Positions 18,107 to 52,376 of a stretch of DNA of 52,571 bases are shown piece after piece. A program made the position numbers and the translations under genes. The stretch is from Oscillospiraceae bacterium (GTDB lineage: Bacteria; Bacillota; Clostridia; Oscillospirales; Ruminococcaceae): positions 1 through 52,571 of the forward strand of contig JAFXHL010000018.1 in the NCBI GenBank assembly GCA_017536405.1. Direction: 5' to 3'. The notes below the pieces were generated by a model. That model was not told the origin of the DNA, did no database searches, and was given only the letters and a program-made list of their open reading frames with translations. Every line of letters starts with the position of its first letter. Within the stretch, counting starts at the first letter, position 1.

Positions 18107-18146
18107 TTAATTGAGAAAAAGAACGCTTTGCGAAAGGAGGTATAAT

Positions 18147-19793
18147 ATGGCTGTAAAAATATCGGTAAATCAGGCAGGATATGTTGCCGACCTTCCTAAA
18201 ATAGCATCAGTTTCAGGCTCGGCGAAAAAGTTTCATATATTCCGCTCTGACGGAACAAAACCCGCATTTTCAGGGCTTCTTCTCGGTGCTGTATATGATT
18301 CCGCCTCGGGCGACAGGGTTCTCTCGGCGGATTTCTCACAGTTCTGCGAAGAGGGAGAATTCTATATAAAAGTCGGTTCATCGCGTTCACCCGTTTTCAC
18401 AATATCAAAAGCACCATATAAACCCCTCCTTGAAGATATAAAAAAATCGCTTTACTTCTTCCGTTGTGGTTCTGCACTTCACAGAAACAGGGCGGGAAAA
18501 TTCGGAAGAAAGCCTTGTCATATCGAGCCTGCAACCTTCTATGACGACAGAGAAAGAACTCTCGATGTTTCGGGCGGATGGCACGACGCAGGCGACTATT
18601 CAAGATGTGTTGTTACAGGTTGCGTGGCGCTCGGTCATCTTCTATATGCCTACTCTCTCTTCCCTGAAGTTTTCGGCGATAAGGACGGCATATCGCAGTC
18701 GGGAAGAAACTGTCCGCTTATTATCGAAGAATGTCTTTATGAACTCGAATGGCTTCTTAAAATGCAGGATAAGGACGGCGGTGTATATCACAGGGTTTCA
18801 TCGCTTCATTATGCGGGTCTTGTGATGCCCTCTGATGATAAGGAAACTCAATATATATTCAGAAAAACAGCCTCGGCGACAGCTCTTTTCGCCGCCGTAA
18901 CAGCCCTCGCCGCAAGAATACTTGAACCTATGGGTATGAGGATAATAAAAAAACTCCGTCCCGCAGCGCTGGCAGCATGGGCATGGCTTCTCAACAACCC
19001 CGATTATACCCCCTTTGAAAACGACAAGAATATCGTTTCTCCCGAATACAGCGATGATTTTTTAGATGACGACATTTTCTGGGCGACGGCAGAACTTTAT
19101 GCCCTGACGGGCGAAAGAAACTTCTCTGAAAGGGCGGAAGAACTTGCAGGGGTTATCGACACAACGGGATTCACAATAGGAAATGTCGGCGGATTCGGTG
19201 CACTCGCATATATAAAATCCGACTGTGAAAAAAATCCCGAAATAAAAAGTGTTCTCGAAAATAAACTCACCCACCGCGCCGAAACGATATGCTCATCGGC
19301 AAGACACAGCGGATATCGTTCATCACTCTCTCCCGATGAATATTCGTGGTGCAGTAATCTTAAAATACTTACAAATGCAATGACTGTGATTTCAGCAAAC
19401 ATCCTTGAGGGCAGAGACGAATTCTTAACAGAAATCTTAGGGCATATAAATTATATCCTCGGAAATAATCCCCTCTCGCTTTCATATATAACAGGTCAGG
19501 GAAGCAACTCTGTAAGAAAGCCTCATTTCAGACCGACCATTGCCGACAACAACACAGAAGCAATTCCCGGAATGGTTGTTACGGGGCCCGATAAAAACAG
19601 AAGTGATGAATATTCACAGTGGCTCATCCCCTATGGAACGCCGCCTGCGAAATGTCATCTCGACCTTGAACACAGTCATTCCACAAACGAAACAACTATT
19701 TATCTCAACAGTGCGGCAACATTCCTTTTCGGCTATATTTCAGACCTCTGCCGAAGAGATACCAATTCCGCACACAATAAAAAGGAGCGTTGA
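18147..19793 (+). CDS. Glycoside hydrolase family 9 enzyme without signal peptide
   Basis: 548 aa from ATG 18147, which follows AGGAGG by 6 bp. Residues 3-90 form the Ig-like domain found in front of many GH9 catalytic domains (ISVNQAGYVADLPKIA). The GH9 barrel has the GGWHDAGDYSRC motif with the two catalytic-base Asp residues, the late SYITGQGSNSVRKPHF motif, and the catalytic acid Glu in HSTNETTIYLNSAA. GH9 enzymes cleave beta-1,4-glucans. The N-terminus MAVKISV is not a signal peptide, so it probably acts in the cytosol on short cello-oligosaccharides. The family is clear; the substrate is inference. Confidence 0.88.
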   Translation: MAVKISVNQAGYVADLPKIASVSGSAKKFHIFRSDGTKPAFSGLLLGAVYDSASGDRVLSADFSQFCEEGEFYIKVGSSRSPVFTISKAPYKPLLEDIKKSLYFFRCGSALHRNRAGKFGRKPCHIEPATFYDDRERTLDVSGGWHDAGDYSRCVVTGCVALGHLLYAYSLFPEVFGDKDGISQSGRNCPLIIEECLYELEWLLKMQDKDGGVYHRVSSLHYAGLVMPSDDKETQYIFRKTASATALFAAVTALAARILEPMGMRIIKKLRPAALAAWAWLLNNPDYTPFENDKNIVSPEYSDDFLDDDIFWATAELYALTGERNFSERAEELAGVIDTTGFTIGNVGGFGALAYIKSDCEKNPEIKSVLENKLTHRAETICSSARHSGYRSSLSPDEYSWCSNLKILTNAMTVISANILEGRDEFLTEILGHINYILGNNPLSLSYITGQGSNSVRKPHFRPTIADNNTEAIPGMVVTGPDKNRSDEYSQWLIPYGTPPAKCHLDLEHSHSTNETTIYLNSAATFLFGYISDLCRRDTNSAHNKKER

Positions 19794-32454: not shown

Positions 32455-34482
32455 TTGGAAAAAAAGAACAATCCCAGACTCAGCGGATTCGGAAAAAAAT
32501 CAGAAAAATCTTCTGAAAAGGCGGCAAGAAAGCCTGTTCCGCAGAAAGCGGCTAATTTTGCCGAATACGAGGCTATGATGAACGAAAAGAAAAAAGCCGA
32601 AAAGAAAAAGCAGAAGGAAAAGAAAAAGCCCGTAATAGAAAAGGCTTCAAAGAAAACTGCAAAGCCCATAAAAAACACAAAGCAGAAACAGAATGCAAAA
32701 AAACAGTCAAAGCAGAATACAAAGAAACCCGCTTCTCAGAAACAGAAGGAAACTGCAATTTCTTATGCTGAATACGCTTCAAAGCAGAGAGAGGTTTTAG
32801 AAACACTTTACAGAGGCGGAAAGAACACTCCCCTTAAAATCATCCCCATAGGCGGACTCAATGAAATAGGCAAGAACCTTACTGTATTTGAATGCGGAAA
32901 CGATATGTTCATCGTTGACTGCGGTCTTGCTTTCCCCGATACAGAACTCTATGGCGTTGACATCGTTATCCCCGAATTCACATATATCGAACAGAATATT
33001 GACAAGCTCCGCGGTATCGTTATTACTCACGGACACGAAGACCATATAGGCGGTCTTGCTTATCTTCTCAAAAAGGTAAAAGCTCCCGTTTATGCAACAA
33101 AACTCACAATAGGTCTTATCGAGGGAAAACTTAAAGAGCATAACCTTTCGGGCGAAGTTACACTCAATGTTTCAAGACCCGGTCAGATAGTTAAAATGGG
33201 ATGTATGGCGGTTGAATTCATAAGAGTAAACCATTCTATCCCCGACGCCTGCGGATTTGCTATCCATACTCCTGCGGGTGTTGTTGTCCACACGGGCGAC
33301 TTCAAGGTTGACTACACTCCCATTGAAGGCGGAATCATTGATCTTGCGCGTTTCGGCGAACTCGGAAGCAAGGGCGTTTTAGCGCTTATGTCCGACTCGA
33401 CAAACTCTGAAAGAGCGGGATATACACAGACGGAAAGAACTGTCGGAAAAGCATTCGACAAGCTCTTTGAAGACGCTGACGGAAAGAGAATCATAATAGC
33501 GACATTCTCATCGAATATCCACAGAATTCAGCAGGTTATCAACTGTGCTAAAAAATACGGCAGAAAGGTCGCTGTTTCGGGAAGAAGTATGGTCAATGTT
33601 ATTTCAACTGCGGTTGAACTCGGTTACCTTGACGCTCCCGACGGAATTATAATAGACATCGACCTTATCAACAGATATTCCCCCGAACAGATAGTAATAG
33701 TTACAACGGGAAGTCAGGGCGAACCTATGTCGGCACTTTCAAGAATGGCTATGAATGACCATAAGAAAGTGTCTATTACCCCTATGGATTATATCATAAT
33801 TTCTGCAACACCAATACCGGGCAACGAAAAACTCGTTACAAAGGTTGTAAACGAACTTATGACATTGGGCGCTACCGTTATTTACGAATCAATGTATGAT
33901 GTTCACGTTTCGGGGCACGCCTGTCAGGATGAACAGAAGCTCATTATGGCTCTTACAAGACCCAAATTCTTCATCCCCGTCCACGGCGAATACAAGCATC
34001 TCAAAAAACACGCCGAAACGGCTGTCGGAATGGGCATTCCCGAGGAAAATATCATAATAGGCTCAAACGGAAATGTTATTGAAACAAACGGCGAGGATAT
34101 AAAGATAACGGGTCAGGTTGCGGCAGGAAGAGTTCTTGTCGACGGTCTCGGTGTCGGAGATGTAGGGTCAATAGTACTCCGCGACAGAAAGCATCTCGCC
34201 GAAGACGGACTTATCATTGCCGTTTCAACAGTCGATTTTGAAAACGGACAGATTCTTTCGGGCCCCGATATCATCTCACGCGGATTTGTATATGTGAGAG
34301 AATCGGAAGAACTTATGTCGGAAGCGAGAAATATAGTTGTTTCTGAGCTTGAAGATGCCCTTATGACAGGAAATTCAGACAGAAACGCAATAAAGACAAA
34401 AATCAAGGACGCTCTTTCAAGCTATATCTATAAGAAAACAAAGAGAAGTCCTATGATTCTCCCCATTCTTCAGGAACTTTGA
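32455..34482 (+). CDS. rnj: Ribonuclease J with Lys-rich N-terminal extension
   Basis: 675 aa, TTG start with AAAGGCGG 8 bp before. Residues 1-122 are a very basic, low-complexity extension (KKKAEKKKQKEKKK and similar), absent from the usual about 555-aa RNase J. Then the metallo-beta-lactamase domain with HGHEDHIGG (His192-Gly-His-Glu-Asp-His), beta-CASP (SDSTNSERAGYTQTE, FSSNIHRIQQ, GSQGEP), HVSGHACQDE and FIPVHGEYKHLKKH. It degrades and matures RNA 5' to 3' or endonucleolytically. First gene of the operon with gdpP. Confidence 0.95.
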   Translation: MEKKNNPRLSGFGKKSEKSSEKAARKPVPQKAANFAEYEAMMNEKKKAEKKKQKEKKKPVIEKASKKTAKPIKNTKQKQNAKKQSKQNTKKPASQKQKETAISYAEYASKQREVLETLYRGGKNTPLKIIPIGGLNEIGKNLTVFECGNDMFIVDCGLAFPDTELYGVDIVIPEFTYIEQNIDKLRGIVITHGHEDHIGGLAYLLKKVKAPVYATKLTIGLIEGKLKEHNLSGEVTLNVSRPGQIVKMGCMAVEFIRVNHSIPDACGFAIHTPAGVVVHTGDFKVDYTPIEGGIIDLARFGELGSKGVLALMSDSTNSERAGYTQTERTVGKAFDKLFEDADGKRIIIATFSSNIHRIQQVINCAKKYGRKVAVSGRSMVNVISTAVELGYLDAPDGIIIDIDLINRYSPEQIVIVTTGSQGEPMSALSRMAMNDHKKVSITPMDYIIISATPIPGNEKLVTKVVNELMTLGATVIYESMYDVHVSGHACQDEQKLIMALTRPKFFIPVHGEYKHLKKHAETAVGMGIPEENIIIGSNGNVIETNGEDIKITGQVAAGRVLVDGLGVGDVGSIVLRDRKHLAEDGLIIAVSTVDFENGQILSGPDIISRGFVYVRESEELMSEARNIVVSELEDALMTGNSDRNAIKTKIKDALSSYIYKKTKRSPMILPILQEL

Positions 34483-44876: not shown

Positions 44877-47273
44877 TTACTTTGTGAGGTTCCAGATGTC
44901 GCGTGCATAGTCTTCTACTGCTCTGTCTGCTGAGAAGATTCCTGCGCCTGCTATGTTGTTGAGAGACATCTTGTTCCAAGCTGTTGTATCCTTATACTTT
45001 TCTGATGAGAACGCCTGTGCTCTCTGGTAATCAGCAAAGTCTGCGAGAACCATATAAGGATCCTTATATCTGAGGCTGTTTGCAACTTCTTCGAATGTGC
45101 AGCCATTGATGCCACGATACATTCTTTCGATAGCCGCTCTGATGATATAGTTATCGTTGTAGTAGTTTTCAGGGTTATAGCCTGAAGCCTTCTTCTGAAG
45201 AACCTCATCTTTAAGCATACCGAATGTTATGATGTTATCAGGGCCTACTGCGTCACCGATTTCGATGTTAGCGCCGTCGAATGTTCCGAGTGTTACAGCA
45301 CCGTTAAGCATAAGCTTCATATTACCTGTTCCCGAAGCTTCTGTTCCTGCGAGAGAAATCTGTTCTGAAATATCACTTGCAGGCATAAGGATTTCTGAAA
45401 GTGTAACCTTATAGTCTTCGAGGAAGTAAACAGCGAGTTTATCCTTGATCTTATCGTTCTTTCTGATTTCTTCAGAAATAGCCCAGATCATCTTGATAAT
45501 CTGCTTAGCGAGATAATATCCGGGTGCTGCCTTAGCTGCGAAGATATATGTCTTGGGTGTGAAATCCATATCGGGATTTTCAAGAAGCGCATTATACTGT
45601 GCGATGATGTTAAGAGCGTTAAGGTGCTGACGCTTGTATTCATGAAGACGCTTTACCTGAACATCGAAGATGCTGTCTGTATTAAGAACAACGCCTGAAT
45701 GCTGTTTGATGTATTTTGCAAAGTTTTCCTTATTCTGCTTTTTAACCTTAGCGAGTTTAGAAAGAACCTGTGTATCGTTTTCAAACACGCAGAATTTCTT
45801 GAGTTCAGAAGCGTCTTTAAGGAACTTATCGCCGATTGTTTCAGTAAGAAGCTTTGTAAGGCCGGGGTTTGACTGATAAAGCCATCTTCTGTAAGCGATA
45901 CCGTTTGTAACATTCTTGAACTTATGAGGTGTATCTATGTATTCATTATTGAAAACTTCGTGCTTGATGATTTCAGAATGGAGCTTTGATACGCCGTTTA
46001 CGCTGTGTGAAGCGTCAAGACAGAGGTTAGCCATATGAATCTGGTTGTTCTGAATGATAGACATTCTTGAAACTCTGCCTGCGTCGCCTGTTCTTTCCAT
46101 AAGAGCAGAGCAGTATCTCTGGTTGATTTCGCAGATGATTGAGTAGATACGGGGAATAACTTCCTTAACGAGATTCTGATCCCATTTTTCGAGAGCTTCC
46201 GCCATAACTGTATGGTTTGTATATGCGAATGTGTTTCTGACGATATGCCATGCCTTGTTCCAGCTATAACCGCAATCGTCGAGAAGAATTCTCATGAGTT
46301 CGGGGATAGCGAGAGTGGGGTGTGTATCGTTGATATGTATAGCAACCTTTTCGTGAAGGTTATCGAGTGTTCCGTAAACGCTCATATGATGGTTTACAAT
46401 GTCACCAACAGAAGCGGCGCAGAGGAAATACTGCTGACGGAGACGGAGTGATTTTCCTTCTAAATGGTTATCGTTGGGGTAAAGAACCTTTGAGATAGCC
46501 TGAGCCATACTGTTCTGACCGAGAGCCTTTGCATAATCACCCTGATTGAACATAGCCATATCGAATGAGGGAGATTTAGCCTGCCAGAGTCTTAAAACAG
46601 AAACTGCTTCTGAATCATAACCTGAAACATACATATCATAAGGAACAGCGAGAACTGTTGAGTAATCAACATGTGAAACATGGTGATACTGATTATCCCA
46701 GTATTCGTTGAGCTTTCCGTCAAAATGGATTTCAACTGCCTTGTCGAGCTTGGGAACAAGCCATACCTGACCGCCGGGGAGCCAGTTATCAGGAAGTTCT
46801 GTCTGCCAGCCGTTTTCAATCTTCTGACGGAAGATACCGTATTCATAACAGATTGAATAACCCATACCTGCATAGCCCTGTGTTGCAAGACCATCGAGAT
46901 AACAGGCTGCGAGTCTGCCGAGACCGCCGTTTCCGAGACCTGCGTCGGGTTCGTATTCATAGATATTGTCGAGCTTGATGCCGTATTCTTTGAGAACATC
47001 ACGGACTTCGTTCTGAATACCGAGGTTATAGAGTGATGTCTTTAAAGAACGGCCCATAAGAAATTCCATCGAGAGATAGTAAATCTGTTTTTTACCTTCT
47101 GAATGGACCTTGTTCATAAACTTTCTGCGTTTTCTGCGAAGGTGTGAAACAACAACCGATGCGAGTGCTTCATACACCTGTTTATCAGAGGCTTCGTTGG
47201 GTTCGAGGTTATAATCCATCTGAACCTTCTGTAAAAACTCCTCCTTGAGCTGTTTTTTAGTAATTTCTGCCAT
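44877..47273 (-). CDS. glgP: Glycogen/maltodextrin phosphorylase
   Basis: 798 aa from ATG 47273 (AGGTGG upstream). GT35 family: YYLSMEFLMGRSLKTSL, EPDAGLGNGGLGRLAACYLD, DTHPTLAIPELMRILLD, RRLHEYKRQHL-like KRLHEYKRQHLN, and the PLP site EASGTGNMKLMLNGAVT. It releases glucose-1-phosphate from alpha-glucans. Together with the GH13 enzyme at 50211 it suggests cytoplasmic glycogen or maltodextrin turnover. Monocistronic. Confidence 0.97.
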   Translation of the reverse strand: MAEITKKQLKEEFLQKVQMDYNLEPNEASDKQVYEALASVVVSHLRRKRRKFMNKVHSEGKKQIYYLSMEFLMGRSLKTSLYNLGIQNEVRDVLKEYGIKLDNIYEYEPDAGLGNGGLGRLAACYLDGLATQGYAGMGYSICYEYGIFRQKIENGWQTELPDNWLPGGQVWLVPKLDKAVEIHFDGKLNEYWDNQYHHVSHVDYSTVLAVPYDMYVSGYDSEAVSVLRLWQAKSPSFDMAMFNQGDYAKALGQNSMAQAISKVLYPNDNHLEGKSLRLRQQYFLCAASVGDIVNHHMSVYGTLDNLHEKVAIHINDTHPTLAIPELMRILLDDCGYSWNKAWHIVRNTFAYTNHTVMAEALEKWDQNLVKEVIPRIYSIICEINQRYCSALMERTGDAGRVSRMSIIQNNQIHMANLCLDASHSVNGVSKLHSEIIKHEVFNNEYIDTPHKFKNVTNGIAYRRWLYQSNPGLTKLLTETIGDKFLKDASELKKFCVFENDTQVLSKLAKVKKQNKENFAKYIKQHSGVVLNTDSIFDVQVKRLHEYKRQHLNALNIIAQYNALLENPDMDFTPKTYIFAAKAAPGYYLAKQIIKMIWAISEEIRKNDKIKDKLAVYFLEDYKVTLSEILMPASDISEQISLAGTEASGTGNMKLMLNGAVTLGTFDGANIEIGDAVGPDNIITFGMLKDEVLQKKASGYNPENYYNDNYIIRAAIERMYRGINGCTFEEVANSLRYKDPYMVLADFADYQRAQAFSSEKYKDTTAWNKMSLNNIAGAGIFSADRAVEDYARDIWNLTK

Positions 47274-47319
47274 TATGTTAACCACCTATCATATATATAT
47301 AAATATTTATGCAACAAAC

Positions 47320-48687: not shown

Positions 48688-49590
48688 TTATTCAGCCTTT
48701 ATCTTGTCTGATGAGATGATAACGGATACTGTTCCGAACGGGAAGCAGATAGGCATAGTAAACATTGAGCCCTTAGTAGAAAGTTCTATGCTTTCCTTTG
48801 AAATCTGGGGTTCAAGCTGAAGTTCAATCTGCTTGTTGTTTGACATATTTACTGTGAAAAGTCCGTTATGTAAGTTTAAAAATTCTGCAACAGATTCTCT
48901 TGCGAGTTCATCGAAACTGTCGATTTCTTCGTGTGAATATCTCTTTGCGAATTCAACCATAGCCGCTTCGGTACCTTCAATAGCTGTAAATACTTCTCCC
49001 TTTCCGTTTACCATCTGATAGGAGATTTTTTCTGCCTTATAAGATGTTGTTGCTTCGGGAGCCAAGGGAATGAAATCATCGCCTATGAAACGGATGATAT
49101 TCTTGAAAACGAGTGATGTGTATTCTGTGAAGAATTCAACATCTGAATCGAATGTGTTGAAGATATAGAAATTGCGGATGATTGTGTCGATTTTACGATT
49201 CTGGTCATCTGTGAAATCTCTTTCTTCGATAAGGTTGTTTTCCTTATATTTAGCGAGAGCATTTGCAAACTGTTCGTTTGTGAGGTAACCCTTGTCAACA
49301 AGCGCCTGACCGATAACGAGATGAGCCTGCTTCTGATTTGAGAGAAGAGTTTCTACCTGTGATTCTGTCATATAGCCCTTTTCAACGGCAATGTCACCGA
49401 ATCTCTTGTCCATTCTCTGCTGTTCTGCGTGAACTTCGTCAACCTGTGCGGCTGTCATATATCCTGCGTTGATAGCGAGAACGCCGAGCTTTGCGCGGGC
49501 GAATTTCTGCATTTCGAGAGCTTCTATAAGTTGCTGTTTTGTAACGAGTTTTTCGTTAAAAAGATAGTTTCCGAAAAATTGTGTAAACAT
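48688..49590 (-). CDS. MshEN-like repeat protein with C-terminal CheX-like domain
   Basis: 300 aa. Residues 5-115 hold four copies of a motif of the form [FL]GxxxxxxGY[ML]TxxQ. The anchoring Gly residues are G7, G36, G65 and G94: an exact 29-residue period, the period of the two half-motifs (24 + 5) of MshEN domains, which bind c-di-GMP in MshE. The third has the usual Arg before the hydrophobic residue (KRFGD). Residues 120-300 resemble CheX/CheC phosphatases: a near-signature ESVAEFLNLHNG (E-x2-N with a Pro 22 residues on, in LEPQISKE) and the terminal CFPFGTVSVIISSD strand. The function is inferred: a phosphatase for the CheY-like protein encoded 6 bp upstream, with a c-di-GMP sensor. Confidence 0.75.
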   Translation of the reverse strand: MFTQFFGNYLFNEKLVTKQQLIEALEMQKFARAKLGVLAINAGYMTAAQVDEVHAEQQRMDKRFGDIAVEKGYMTESQVETLLSNQKQAHLVIGQALVDKGYLTNEQFANALAKYKENNLIEERDFTDDQNRKIDTIIRNFYIFNTFDSDVEFFTEYTSLVFKNIIRFIGDDFIPLAPEATTSYKAEKISYQMVNGKGEVFTAIEGTEAAMVEFAKRYSHEEIDSFDELARESVAEFLNLHNGLFTVNMSNNKQIELQLEPQISKESIELSTKGSMFTMPICFPFGTVSVIISSDKIKAE

Positions 49591-49596
49591 GGTGGG

Positions 49597-49995
49597 TTAC
49601 TTCCTTTCGGCGATTTTTTCGATGATTTTTGTTACATCGTCAAAGTTTACGGGCTTCTGTAAGAATTCATAAGCGCCTGCTGCAATGGCGATCTTGAGGT
49701 TATCCTGTGTACCTACTGATGAGGCCATAACAACCTTTGCAGATGAGTCATATGCGAGAATATCAATGAGCGCTTCAACGCCGCTCTTTTCAGGCATAAC
49801 TATATCCATAAAAACAACATCGGGCTTGTTTGCCTTATAGACATCAACAGCCTCGTTGCCGTTTACTGCTTCAAAAACAGTTGTAATTCCGAGTGATGCA
49901 AGATGGTCTTTCATCTTTTTTCTGACAAGAACAGAGTCATCGCTGATCTGAACTTTAATATCCTTGATTTCCATAATATCTCTCCTCACTTTCAA
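49597..49995 (-). CDS. CheY-like single-domain response regulator
   Basis: 132 aa. Receiver with D12/D13 acidic pair, phospho-Asp57 in PDVVFMDIVMPEKSG, Ser86 in VVMASSVG, and Lys107 in FLQKPVNF. No output domain. Next, 6 bp on, comes the MshEN-CheX-like gene, so the pair is co-transcribed. No cognate kinase gene is near. A chemotaxis- or pilus-type switch is inferred. Confidence 0.92.
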   Translation of the reverse strand: MKVRRDIMEIKDIKVQISDDSVLVRKKMKDHLASLGITTVFEAVNGNEAVDVYKANKPDVVFMDIVMPEKSGVEALIDILAYDSSAKVVMASSVGTQDNLKIAIAAGAYEFLQKPVNFDDVTKIIEKIAERK

Positions 49996-50177: not shown

Positions 50178-50210
50178 CATTTTGTATAACATCAAAAGGA
50201 GAAAATTTTT

Positions 50211-51791
50211 ATGGCAAACTGGGTAAACAGTTCGGTTTTTTATCACATCTATCCGTTAGGATTCTGCGGTGCGCCGATGCTTAATGCTGGCGGTGAACCC
50301 GTTAACAGAATAAAGAAGATTTCAGAATGGATTCCTCATATAAAAGAAGGGAATTTCAATGCTTTATATTTAGGCCCTGTTTTTGAAAGTTCCGTTCATG
50401 GTTATGATACAAAGGACTACCGCGTTATCGACAGACGACTCGGAACAAACGCCGATTTCAAGGCACTTTGTGAAGAGCTCCACGAAAACGGTATAAAGAT
50501 AGTTTTAGACGGCGTTTTCAACCATGTAGGACGCGATTTCTTCGCTTTCAAGGATTTACAGGAAAACGAATACACATCACAGTATAAAGACTGGTTTTAT
50601 GTCAATTTTTCGGGAACAAGCCCCTATAACGACCCGTTTTCATATGAGGGCTGGCAGGGACACTATAACCTCGTAAAGCTCAACATCTCAAATCCTGAGG
50701 TTGCTGATTATATTTTAAAGAGCGTTGAAATGTGGATGGATGAATTCGGTATCGACGGTCTTCGACTTGACGCTGCTGACTGCGTTGACATCGAATTCTT
50801 CAAGAAACTCCGCAGTTTCACAAAATCAAAGAACCCTGATTTCTGGCTTATGGGCGAAATCATCCACGGCGATTATACACGCTGGGCAAACAATGATGTT
50901 TTAGACAGCGTTACAAACTATGAATGTCAGAAGGGTATCTATTCATCACACAACGACAAGAACTATTATGAAATCTCATACTCGCTCAACAGACAGTTCG
51001 GAAACGGCGGAATTTATAAGAATTTAACCCTTTACAGCTTTGTTGACAACCACGATGTAAACAGACTTGCATCGTTCTTAAAACGCCCCGAATATCTCAA
51101 AAACTGCTATACTCTTATGTATACTATGCCCGGTGTCCCTTCGGTTTATTACGGAAGTGAATGGGGCATAAAGGGAGAGAGAACATCCGCATCTGACGCT
51201 GTTCTTCGCCCATCTTTAGACCTTGACAACATCCCCGATGCTGATATGGATCTTTTTAATCACATAAAGGAACTCGGAAGACTTCACGCAGAGCTCTTGC
51301 CCGTTCAGGTCGGTGATTATGAAAATATTCTTATAAGAAACGAACAGCTTGTATTCAAGAGAAGTTGTGCTTCGGGCGCTGTTTATGTTGCTCTTAACCT
51401 TTCTGACCATAACGCAGAAGTAGGTTTCAATATAACAGGTGCCTGCCTTGTTGACAGACTCGCAGGCGACAAGCAGTATATTCCTCAGAACAACTATATT
51501 TCTATCAATATGCCTCCTTTCTCATCTATGATTTTAGAAGAAGGAAACGCGGCGAAAGTTGCTCCTCAGGTTGAAGAACAGGGCATTTTAATCGGAAGAA
51601 TGTATAAGCATTTCAAGGGCAACACATACATAGTTCTCGCTATCGGAAAAAATTCCGAAACAATGGAAGATGTTGTTATCTATCAGGAACCCGCAGGCGA
51701 AAAGAAGGTATGGGTGCGTCCGCTTTCAATGTTCTCCGAAGAGATAGAAAGAGACGGCAGAAAATTCAAGAGATTCACACTTATCGACTGA
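50211..51791 (+). CDS. GH13 alpha-glucosidase-type enzyme fused to DUF1653
   Basis: 526 aa, ATG preceded by AAAGGAG. The GH13 barrel holds the three catalytic residues: Asp187 (IDGLRLDAAD), Glu216 (LMGEIIHG), Asp282 (VDNHD), plus the DGVFNHVG region. No signal peptide, so it should be cytoplasmic, acting on alpha-1,4-glucans or maltodextrins (neopullulanase/cyclomaltodextrinase-like). From about residue 462 a second domain, MYKHFKGNTYIVLAIGK...VIYQEP...VWVRPLSMFSEEI...RFTLID, fits DUF1653. I do not know this fusion as a standard architecture. Next gene: small membrane protein, 18 bp on. Confidence 0.88.
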   Translation: MANWVNSSVFYHIYPLGFCGAPMLNAGGEPVNRIKKISEWIPHIKEGNFNALYLGPVFESSVHGYDTKDYRVIDRRLGTNADFKALCEELHENGIKIVLDGVFNHVGRDFFAFKDLQENEYTSQYKDWFYVNFSGTSPYNDPFSYEGWQGHYNLVKLNISNPEVADYILKSVEMWMDEFGIDGLRLDAADCVDIEFFKKLRSFTKSKNPDFWLMGEIIHGDYTRWANNDVLDSVTNYECQKGIYSSHNDKNYYEISYSLNRQFGNGGIYKNLTLYSFVDNHDVNRLASFLKRPEYLKNCYTLMYTMPGVPSVYYGSEWGIKGERTSASDAVLRPSLDLDNIPDADMDLFNHIKELGRLHAELLPVQVGDYENILIRNEQLVFKRSCASGAVYVALNLSDHNAEVGFNITGACLVDRLAGDKQYIPQNNYISINMPPFSSMILEEGNAAKVAPQVEEQGILIGRMYKHFKGNTYIVLAIGKNSETMEDVVIYQEPAGEKKVWVRPLSMFSEEIERDGRKFKRFTLID

Positions 51792-51809: not shown

Positions 51810-52376
51810 ATGTCTGAAAAGATAAAGCCATATCGCAGCACATTCCATTTCCCCGAATGCAGAAGAAAAATGAAAATCTGCAAAGCAGCAACTTTTTTCC
51901 CGATTGCCGTTGTTGCTTTAAGCGCCGTTGTCGGAACGATTATAATTCTCGCAAAGGGCGGAATTTCGATAGTAAACGACGAAGCAAACTATCTTTTCGG
52001 AACTCTCATAATGTGGTCGATAATAACCGCTATCCCCTCGGCGTGTATCATTGCAGGGTATAAAATTCCCTGCTTCCCTGCGGGGCTTGCATTCGCCCTG
52101 ATGGCAGCATTCATCGAAAATACCGCGCTTATGATAACCTCGTTTTTAGGAGTTATGTCCTGCGTTATCGCATTTTTCTATATATGCGAAATGGATGACC
52201 TTAAAAATACCTATGGTTATCCGAGTTTCAGAGAGGATTGTGAATTCGAATATCTTCGGACTACAACACCGATAATCGAACAGGAAAAAGAAAGACTCGG
52301 CGGAACAGAAGAAGAAACAGAAGAAGTTTCTGAAGAAACAGAAGAAACTTCCGAAGAAAAAGAAGAAGAAGAATAA
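51810..52376 (+). CDS. Small membrane protein with acidic tail
   Basis: 188 aa. About four membrane helices (near 26-48, 62-85, 88-100 and 105-126) after a cytosolic start with two Cys (PECRRKMKIC). After about residue 150 the chain is almost only Glu and Thr/Ser (EEETEEVSEETEE and similar), encoded by a GAA-rich repeat. No family recognised. Co-transcribed with the GH13 gene. The acidic tail is likely disordered and cytosolic. Confidence 0.7.
   Translation: MSEKIKPYRSTFHFPECRRKMKICKAATFFPIAVVALSAVVGTIIILAKGGISIVNDEANYLFGTLIMWSIITAIPSACIIAGYKIPCFPAGLAFALMAAFIENTALMITSFLGVMSCVIAFFYICEMDDLKNTYGYPSFREDCEFEYLRTTTPIIEQEKERLGGTEEETEEVSEETEETSEEKEEEE

Follow-up and report, generated by a model that had tools for sequence, protein, structure and literature searches.

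Results

Fusion gene and genomic context

The window, meaning the whole stretch of 52,571 nucleotides that was analyzed, is the complete contig C3 of an Oscillospiraceae genome assembled into 108 contigs (1.85 Mb). Near its end, a single open reading frame (ORF) joins a GH13 enzyme to a DUF1653 domain, with the following features.

50196 to 50201, + strand: Shine-Dalgarno-like AAGGAG of the fusion gene, read directly in the sequence
50211 to 51791, + strand: GH13-DUF1653 fusion gene, 526 amino acids (aa), ATG start, no signal peptide evident by eye
50319 to 51194, + strand: GH13 catalytic (TIM-barrel) domain, residues 37 to 328 (PF00128, 175.7 bits, E 2.6e-51)
Codons at 50769, 50856, and 51054, + strand: catalytic-type D187, E216, and D282, the same in 34 of 34 orthologues
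51312 to 51533, + strand: beta-sandwich C-domain of GH13 type, residues 368 to 441, from modelled strands and full-length fold matches
51546 to 51590, + strand: linker between GH13 and DUF1653, about residues 446 to 460, from the model
51600 to 51779, + strand: DUF1653 domain, residues 464 to 523, SH3/Tudor-like barrel (PF07866, 82.1 bits; AlphaFold model; match to 3BE3)
51609 to 51773, + strand: polar set H467, K469, E483, R503, and R521 (codons at 51609, 51615, 51657, 51717, and 51771), conserved in DUF1653 domains
51810 to 52376, + strand: gene of 188 aa, 18 bases 3' of the fusion, weak Pfam match only

Both Pfam domains lay above cutoff within the ORF, bearing out the preliminary description of a GH13 enzyme ending in DUF1653. 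Across the whole protein PF07866 scored 82.1 bits (E 3.7e-23) against a Pfam cutoff of 23.5, and 87.1 bits on the tail piece alone; the HMM check on residues 462 to 526, the segment that had been singled out, returned DUF1653 at residues 464 to 523. The match of Malt_amylase_C (Pfam) to the C-domain was 20.5 bits, below its cutoff of 27. The catalytic barrel starts almost at the start codon, and the fused DUF1653 was the single copy found in the source genome.

The GH13 part contains the catalytic Asp, Glu, and Asp together with the conserved regions of the family in a TIM barrel. D187, E216, D282, D100, N104, H105, R185, and H281 were invariant in 34 of 34 aligned GH13 orthologues, and the catalytic triad is complete, as had been claimed; for the roles of the single residues we presume those general to GH13. 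The best NCBIfam match was cyclomaltodextrinase (206.9 bits, below the cutoff of 540), and none of the 25 matches listed was an equivalog above cutoff. We infer that the product is a cytoplasmic alpha-glucan hydrolase acting on maltodextrins or glycogen fragments. The source genome also encodes GlgX, two GlgB, GlgA (on the same contig as one GlgB), and GlgP (at 44877 to 47285 of the window), which makes an internal glycogen cycle likely in this organism; judging by kinship, the fusion enzyme probably trims maltodextrins in that cycle.

In 4 of 39 loci the fusion is adjoined by the 188-aa downstream gene. On the opposite strand (48688 to 49995, -), and divergent from the fusion, lie a response regulator and a protein whose matches to DUF4388 and to CheX-like families are weak, a pair found beside the fusion in 3 to 4 of the 39 loci. 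Elsewhere the window carries a GH9 cellulase with a CelD_N domain (18111 to 19793) and an RNase J frame (32455 to 34482). In the latter the lactamase domain does not start until residue 148, which points to extra N-terminal sequence or to a start placed too early.

Distribution and history of the fusion

The fusion was present in all five other searched genomes of the genus, as three full-length frames and two cut by contig ends. The nearest named relative, an Oscillospiraceae genome from roe deer, was 98% identical across the whole protein. Fusions also occurred in Anaerotruncus colihominis (two strains, including the complete genome of DSM 17241), A. massiliensis, Clostridium methylpentosum, and Ruminococcus genomes. 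In a sample of 394 genomes of the order, 106 had a GH13 orthologue (E <= 1e-60), which carried the tail in 14 and lacked it in 92. DUF1653 itself was found in 103 of the 394 genomes and within a GH13 frame in just 14 of these, in agreement with the earlier statement that the domain usually stands alone. In a phylum-wide sample (398 genomes), the only well-scoring match in a GH13-length frame was the window's own; one 926-aa frame had a partial match.

In a phylogeny built from the first 440 residues of 81 GH13 domains, with the tail excluded, 44 rows formed one tailed clade (support 98/95). It comprised 27 clear DUF1653 tails, 11 eroded tails, 5 tail-less enzymes, and a single enzyme with another domain; a quick tree that left out the extra rows agreed. 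All six rows without a DUF1653 tail come from a single other family, and their nesting next to tailed enzymes (100/96) makes loss of the tail the probable history of this group. The tree shows at least four separate origins of eroded tails. Tail-less GH13 relatives include Lachnospiraceae, Spirochaetes, Emticicia, and Fibrobacter. In a tree of DUF1653 only, starred branches force at least three label changes, which could reflect re-acquisition of the tail, exchange, or noise; with 65 columns, that tree cannot separate one fusion from several. Two of its GH13 tails (L026 and L058) bore a wrong non-GH13 label. On these sequence comparisons the GH13-DUF1653 fusion is real, old, and conserved, and most simply the domain would have been captured once and then kept, decayed, or lost by lineage.

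Several individual loci depart from this architecture. In L189 (1426 to 3597, 723 aa) the same GH13 orthologue ends in a CobA/CobO/BtuR corrinoid adenosyltransferase domain (174 bits) sitting where the DUF1653 tail would be, an odd pairing from a single assembly of the other family. L068 (5995 to 7665) has an unrelated C-terminal tail with no Pfam match, and the fusion gene of an uncultured Ruminococcus (L058, 5992 to 7666) breaks into two frames ahead of the tail, through either a sequencing error or pseudogene formation. Matches to the GH13 enzyme in phage collections were mostly unannotated fecal scaffolds and were not counted as evidence of phage carriage.

Selection on enzyme, linker, and tail

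Ratios of nonsynonymous to synonymous change (dN/dS, by Nei-Gojobori) in the pairs window/L031, window/L032, and L031/L032 were 0.02, 0.08, and 0.07 for the GH13 part and 0.04, 0.06, and 0.10 for the tail. The A. colihominis pair gave 0.05 for both and 0.48 for the linker; linker values were mostly 0.2 to 0.56 across computable pairs and lower in window/L031, window/L032, and L046/L048, so that most linkers vary more freely than the tail. These ratios indicate purifying selection on the tail as strong as on the enzyme in close pairs, and in most such pairs the tail is kept by selection. Eroded tails gave 0.08 (L044/L063), 0.09 (L046/L048), and 0.31 (L041/L042); in distant pairs tail values were 0.18 to 0.24 or saturated.

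A chance read-through or misassembly of two genes might be suspected, as the window comes from a fragmented genome. The linker contains no stop, both domains are under selection, and the same architecture recurs in a complete genome and many independent assemblies; these relatives refute the idea, whose probability we regard as negligible.

Fold and conserved polar site of the tail

Modelled alone with AlphaFold (AF2), the tail formed a seven-strand SH3/Tudor-like barrel (pLDDT 95.1). The full-length model reached pLDDT 92.7, with a floppy linker (below 50 at residues 449 to 454). With the PDB as fold library, the tail matched 3BE3, a DUF1653 protein of Bordetella bronchiseptica that has the same fold (Foldseek E 3.7e-4; Z 10.2 over 66 residues). 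Profile matches to the PDB entries Bagel, Cake, and Scone ranked above 3BE3 and were rejected, being repeat proteins whose score is summed over many tiny pieces.

After 3BE3, CarD gave the best fold matches (Z 6.6), and Mfd (Z 5.6) and the Tudor domain of UvrD/PcrA (Z 5.4) were also listed; passages of PMC5397179 describe these as RNA-polymerase-binding Tudor-like domains. The tail could accordingly be pictured as docking the enzyme on RNA polymerase or another macromolecular machine. Z values below 8 may, however, reflect merely a common arrangement; myosin, MscS-type channel, and Spindlin rows scored alike, and it is not apparent why an amylase would bind RNA polymerase, so we hold this reading to be highly improbable.

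Conservation was compared among 75 non-GH13 DUF1653 domains, 30 GH13 tails, and 11 eroded tails; domains below 45 bits were left out of the clear DUF1653 set, and a few rows have no letter at positions 521 to 522. H467, K469, E483, and R503 were kept in 75/75 non-GH13 domains, and R521 in 74/74. In GH13 tails the same set was kept in 30/30, except for K469 (29/30) and R521 (28/28). Together with Y473, Y491, and F522, these positions were invariant in both sets bar one K469, and all are present in the window's tail. By secondary structure, the polar residues fall in loops one and two, where strand four ends, and just ahead of the final strand; the five may form one pocket.

Eroded tails (n = 11, counting rows with a letter) retained H in 1/7, K in 0/7, E in 3/11, R503 in 0/9, and R521 in 0/7, whereas the core persisted: G470 in 7/7, Y491 in 10/11, F508 in 9/9, and F522 in 7/7. 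Totals were 33/34 core cells versus 4/41 polar cells. Eroded tails are defined by a low profile score and part of their consensus loss arises by construction, so that the polar-versus-core contrast alone is informative, with positions picked post hoc and related rows that are not independent. The unrelated tail of L068 is outside the 11.

This contrast bears on the idea that the DUF1653 barrel only stabilizes or dimerizes the GH13 enzyme, in place of the N-terminal domain that neopullulanases have and the fusion enzyme lacks, its polar residues being internal salt bridges. Retention of the core but not the polar set in eroded tails fits that idea, as does purifying selection on them (0.08 to 0.09 in two of three pairs). 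Against it, 27 of the 38 rows with a tail still show the DUF1653 signature, and the polar set is as invariant as in stand-alone proteins, which packing on one enzyme would not require; moreover, untailed orthologues, the majority (92 of 106), also start near the catalytic barrel. We consider a purely structural tail unlikely.

DUF1653 in other settings

Among 20 scanned DUF1653 sequences, partners were NUDIX (4/20), GNAT (2/20), and HTH_3 (1/20); the other 13 had DUF1653 alone, two of these queries being the bare domain. In the order, the fusions were NUDIX in L004, L030, L123, and L125, GNAT in L132 and L114, and HTH_3 in L117. In L115, L116, L113, L121, L006, and L092, DUF1653 was joined to some 120 to 210 aa without a Pfam match, and five such partners that were tested had no NCBIfam match either.

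Stand-alone DUF1653 genes occurred in Bacillus, Alicyclobacillus, and Vibrio phages, in regions carrying ribonucleotide reductase, pyrophosphohydrolase, or dUTPase genes; none of these three gene types is named in the DUF1653 region of phage PM1. A DUF1653 ORF of Alicyclobacillus phage MMB025 (L168, 3962 to 4282) is itself annotated as dUTPase, and another lies in the SPbeta-like phage phi3Ts (L169, 4971 to 5183).

These settings bear on the idea that the tail anchors the enzyme to glycogen or starch as a carbohydrate-binding module. GH13 enzymes often carry binding modules at the C-terminus, and tryptophan 501 is kept in clear GH13 tails. Phages and proteins of the NUDIX, GNAT, and HTH types nevertheless have the same domain, and its invariant set is largely charged, which makes a carbohydrate-binding role improbable.

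The neighbors of 46 stand-alone DUF1653 genes (one gene on each side, within 1.5 kb) were diverse, no family appearing more than 3 times among 92 neighbor proteins. They included PHO4 phosphate transporters (2/92) and DHH/DHHA2 pyrophosphatase-type genes (3/92). In L138, L154, and L155, a DHH/DHHA2 gene directly follows a stand-alone DUF1653 gene; two of these genomes are nearly identical. Alpha-amylase and Phosphorylase were absent among the 25 of 90 neighbor families listed. The suggestion that stand-alone DUF1653 genes might lie near glgP thus came out negative within one gene on each side of the 46. Near the fusion, glgP was found in 2 of 39 loci, both of the source genus, and outside that genus gene neighbors gave no glucan link, although weak single matches could escape among the families listed.

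A separate DUF1653 gene was present in 34 of 92 genomes with an untailed orthologue and in 55 of 288 without an orthologue, while none of the 14 fused genomes had an extra copy (Fisher p 7e-4 and 0.004, kinship ignored; the genome lists of the two surveys were taken as the same 394 genomes). This distribution fits the fused DUF1653 standing in for a separate copy; clade effects could also produce it.

Discussion

Role of the tail

Because the fusion is real, old, and conserved, the domain does something useful on the GH13 enzyme. That much of the preliminary description's view of the fusion as a clue to the role of DUF1653 stands; its tie to alpha-glucan breakdown is not supported, given the NUDIX, GNAT, and HTH partners, the phages, and the gene neighbors. 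Found on unrelated enzymes as well, DUF1653 looks less like a part specific to starch than like a portable module for control or docking.

Our preferred, still tentative reading (probability about 0.45) is that DUF1653 is a mobile module that binds a ligand or partner and thereby controls or places the cytoplasmic, neopullulanase-like enzyme carrying it. A GH13 enzyme of the neopullulanase/cyclomaltodextrinase type without an N-terminal domain would have gained the C-terminal barrel, most simply once, in this gut clostridial order. Since the barrel appears to sit on a free linker and retains the polar residues of stand-alone DUF1653 proteins, it most likely acts here as DUF1653 does elsewhere. 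The H-K-E-R-R site would bind a specific ligand or partner, probably charged, and such binding would control or place the enzyme. Counting against this reading, the polar site is gone in at least four lineages that kept the barrel, and the nested other-family group is entirely without the tail; the site is therefore not essential for the GH13 enzyme everywhere.

A more specific version, which we regard as a long shot, is that DUF1653 is a portable sensor barrel that binds a small molecule carrying phosphate (phosphate itself, pyrophosphate, or a nucleotide) through the invariant H-K-E-R-R site and switches the attached enzyme. Its hints are the charged invariant site, the NUDIX partners, the PHO4 and DHH/DHHA2 neighbors, and the phage ribonucleotide reductase, pyrophosphohydrolase, and dUTPase genes. 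If it were true, internal glucan breakdown would be gated by the energy or phosphate state of the cell, and site-less lineages would be those in which the switch was lost.

No function is known for DUF1653, and the open literature searched hardly mentions it; a table row in PMC2996968 reads "protein of unknown function DUF1653." A description of a GH13-DUF1653 fusion was not found in that open literature. GH13 relatives with an intact barrel, a site-less barrel, or no barrel are 54 to 61% identical to the window protein and offer a ready comparison for the role of the barrel, with an easily assayed enzyme attached.

Comparison with known systems

By sequence and fold, the nearest known enzymes are neopullulanase, cyclomaltodextrinase, and maltogenic amylase (1J0H, 1BVZ, and 1SMA; 25 to 29% identity in fold matches), with which the fusion enzyme has the GH13 barrel, C-domain, and catalytic residues in common and relative to which its DUF1653 tail is extra. 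Neopullulanase 1J0H has an N-terminal domain that the fusion enzyme lacks, query residue 3 aligning to 1J0H residue 130. The sequence MPKLN in the fifth conserved region is a mark of GH13_20-type neopullulanases and cyclomaltodextrinases; the fusion enzyme has LVKLN at residues 154 to 158 and thus departs from the GH13_20 type in this motif as well as in the N-terminal domain. Also among the close matches are two shorter GH13 enzymes (475 to 488 aa), the Nostoc punctiforme debranching enzyme 2WC7 and Thermus 2Z1K, which are 27 to 28% identical to the fusion enzyme and for which no DUF1653 domain is named.

For the tail, the counterpart 3BE3 is a stand-alone chain of 91 aa, 26% identical and with no function assigned; the alignment shows HxKG, the second-loop E, and the third-strand Y. 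DUF1653 is likewise a C-terminal addition to an enzyme in NUDIX-DUF1653 and GNAT-DUF1653 proteins from this order, but there the catalytic partner is unrelated to GH13.
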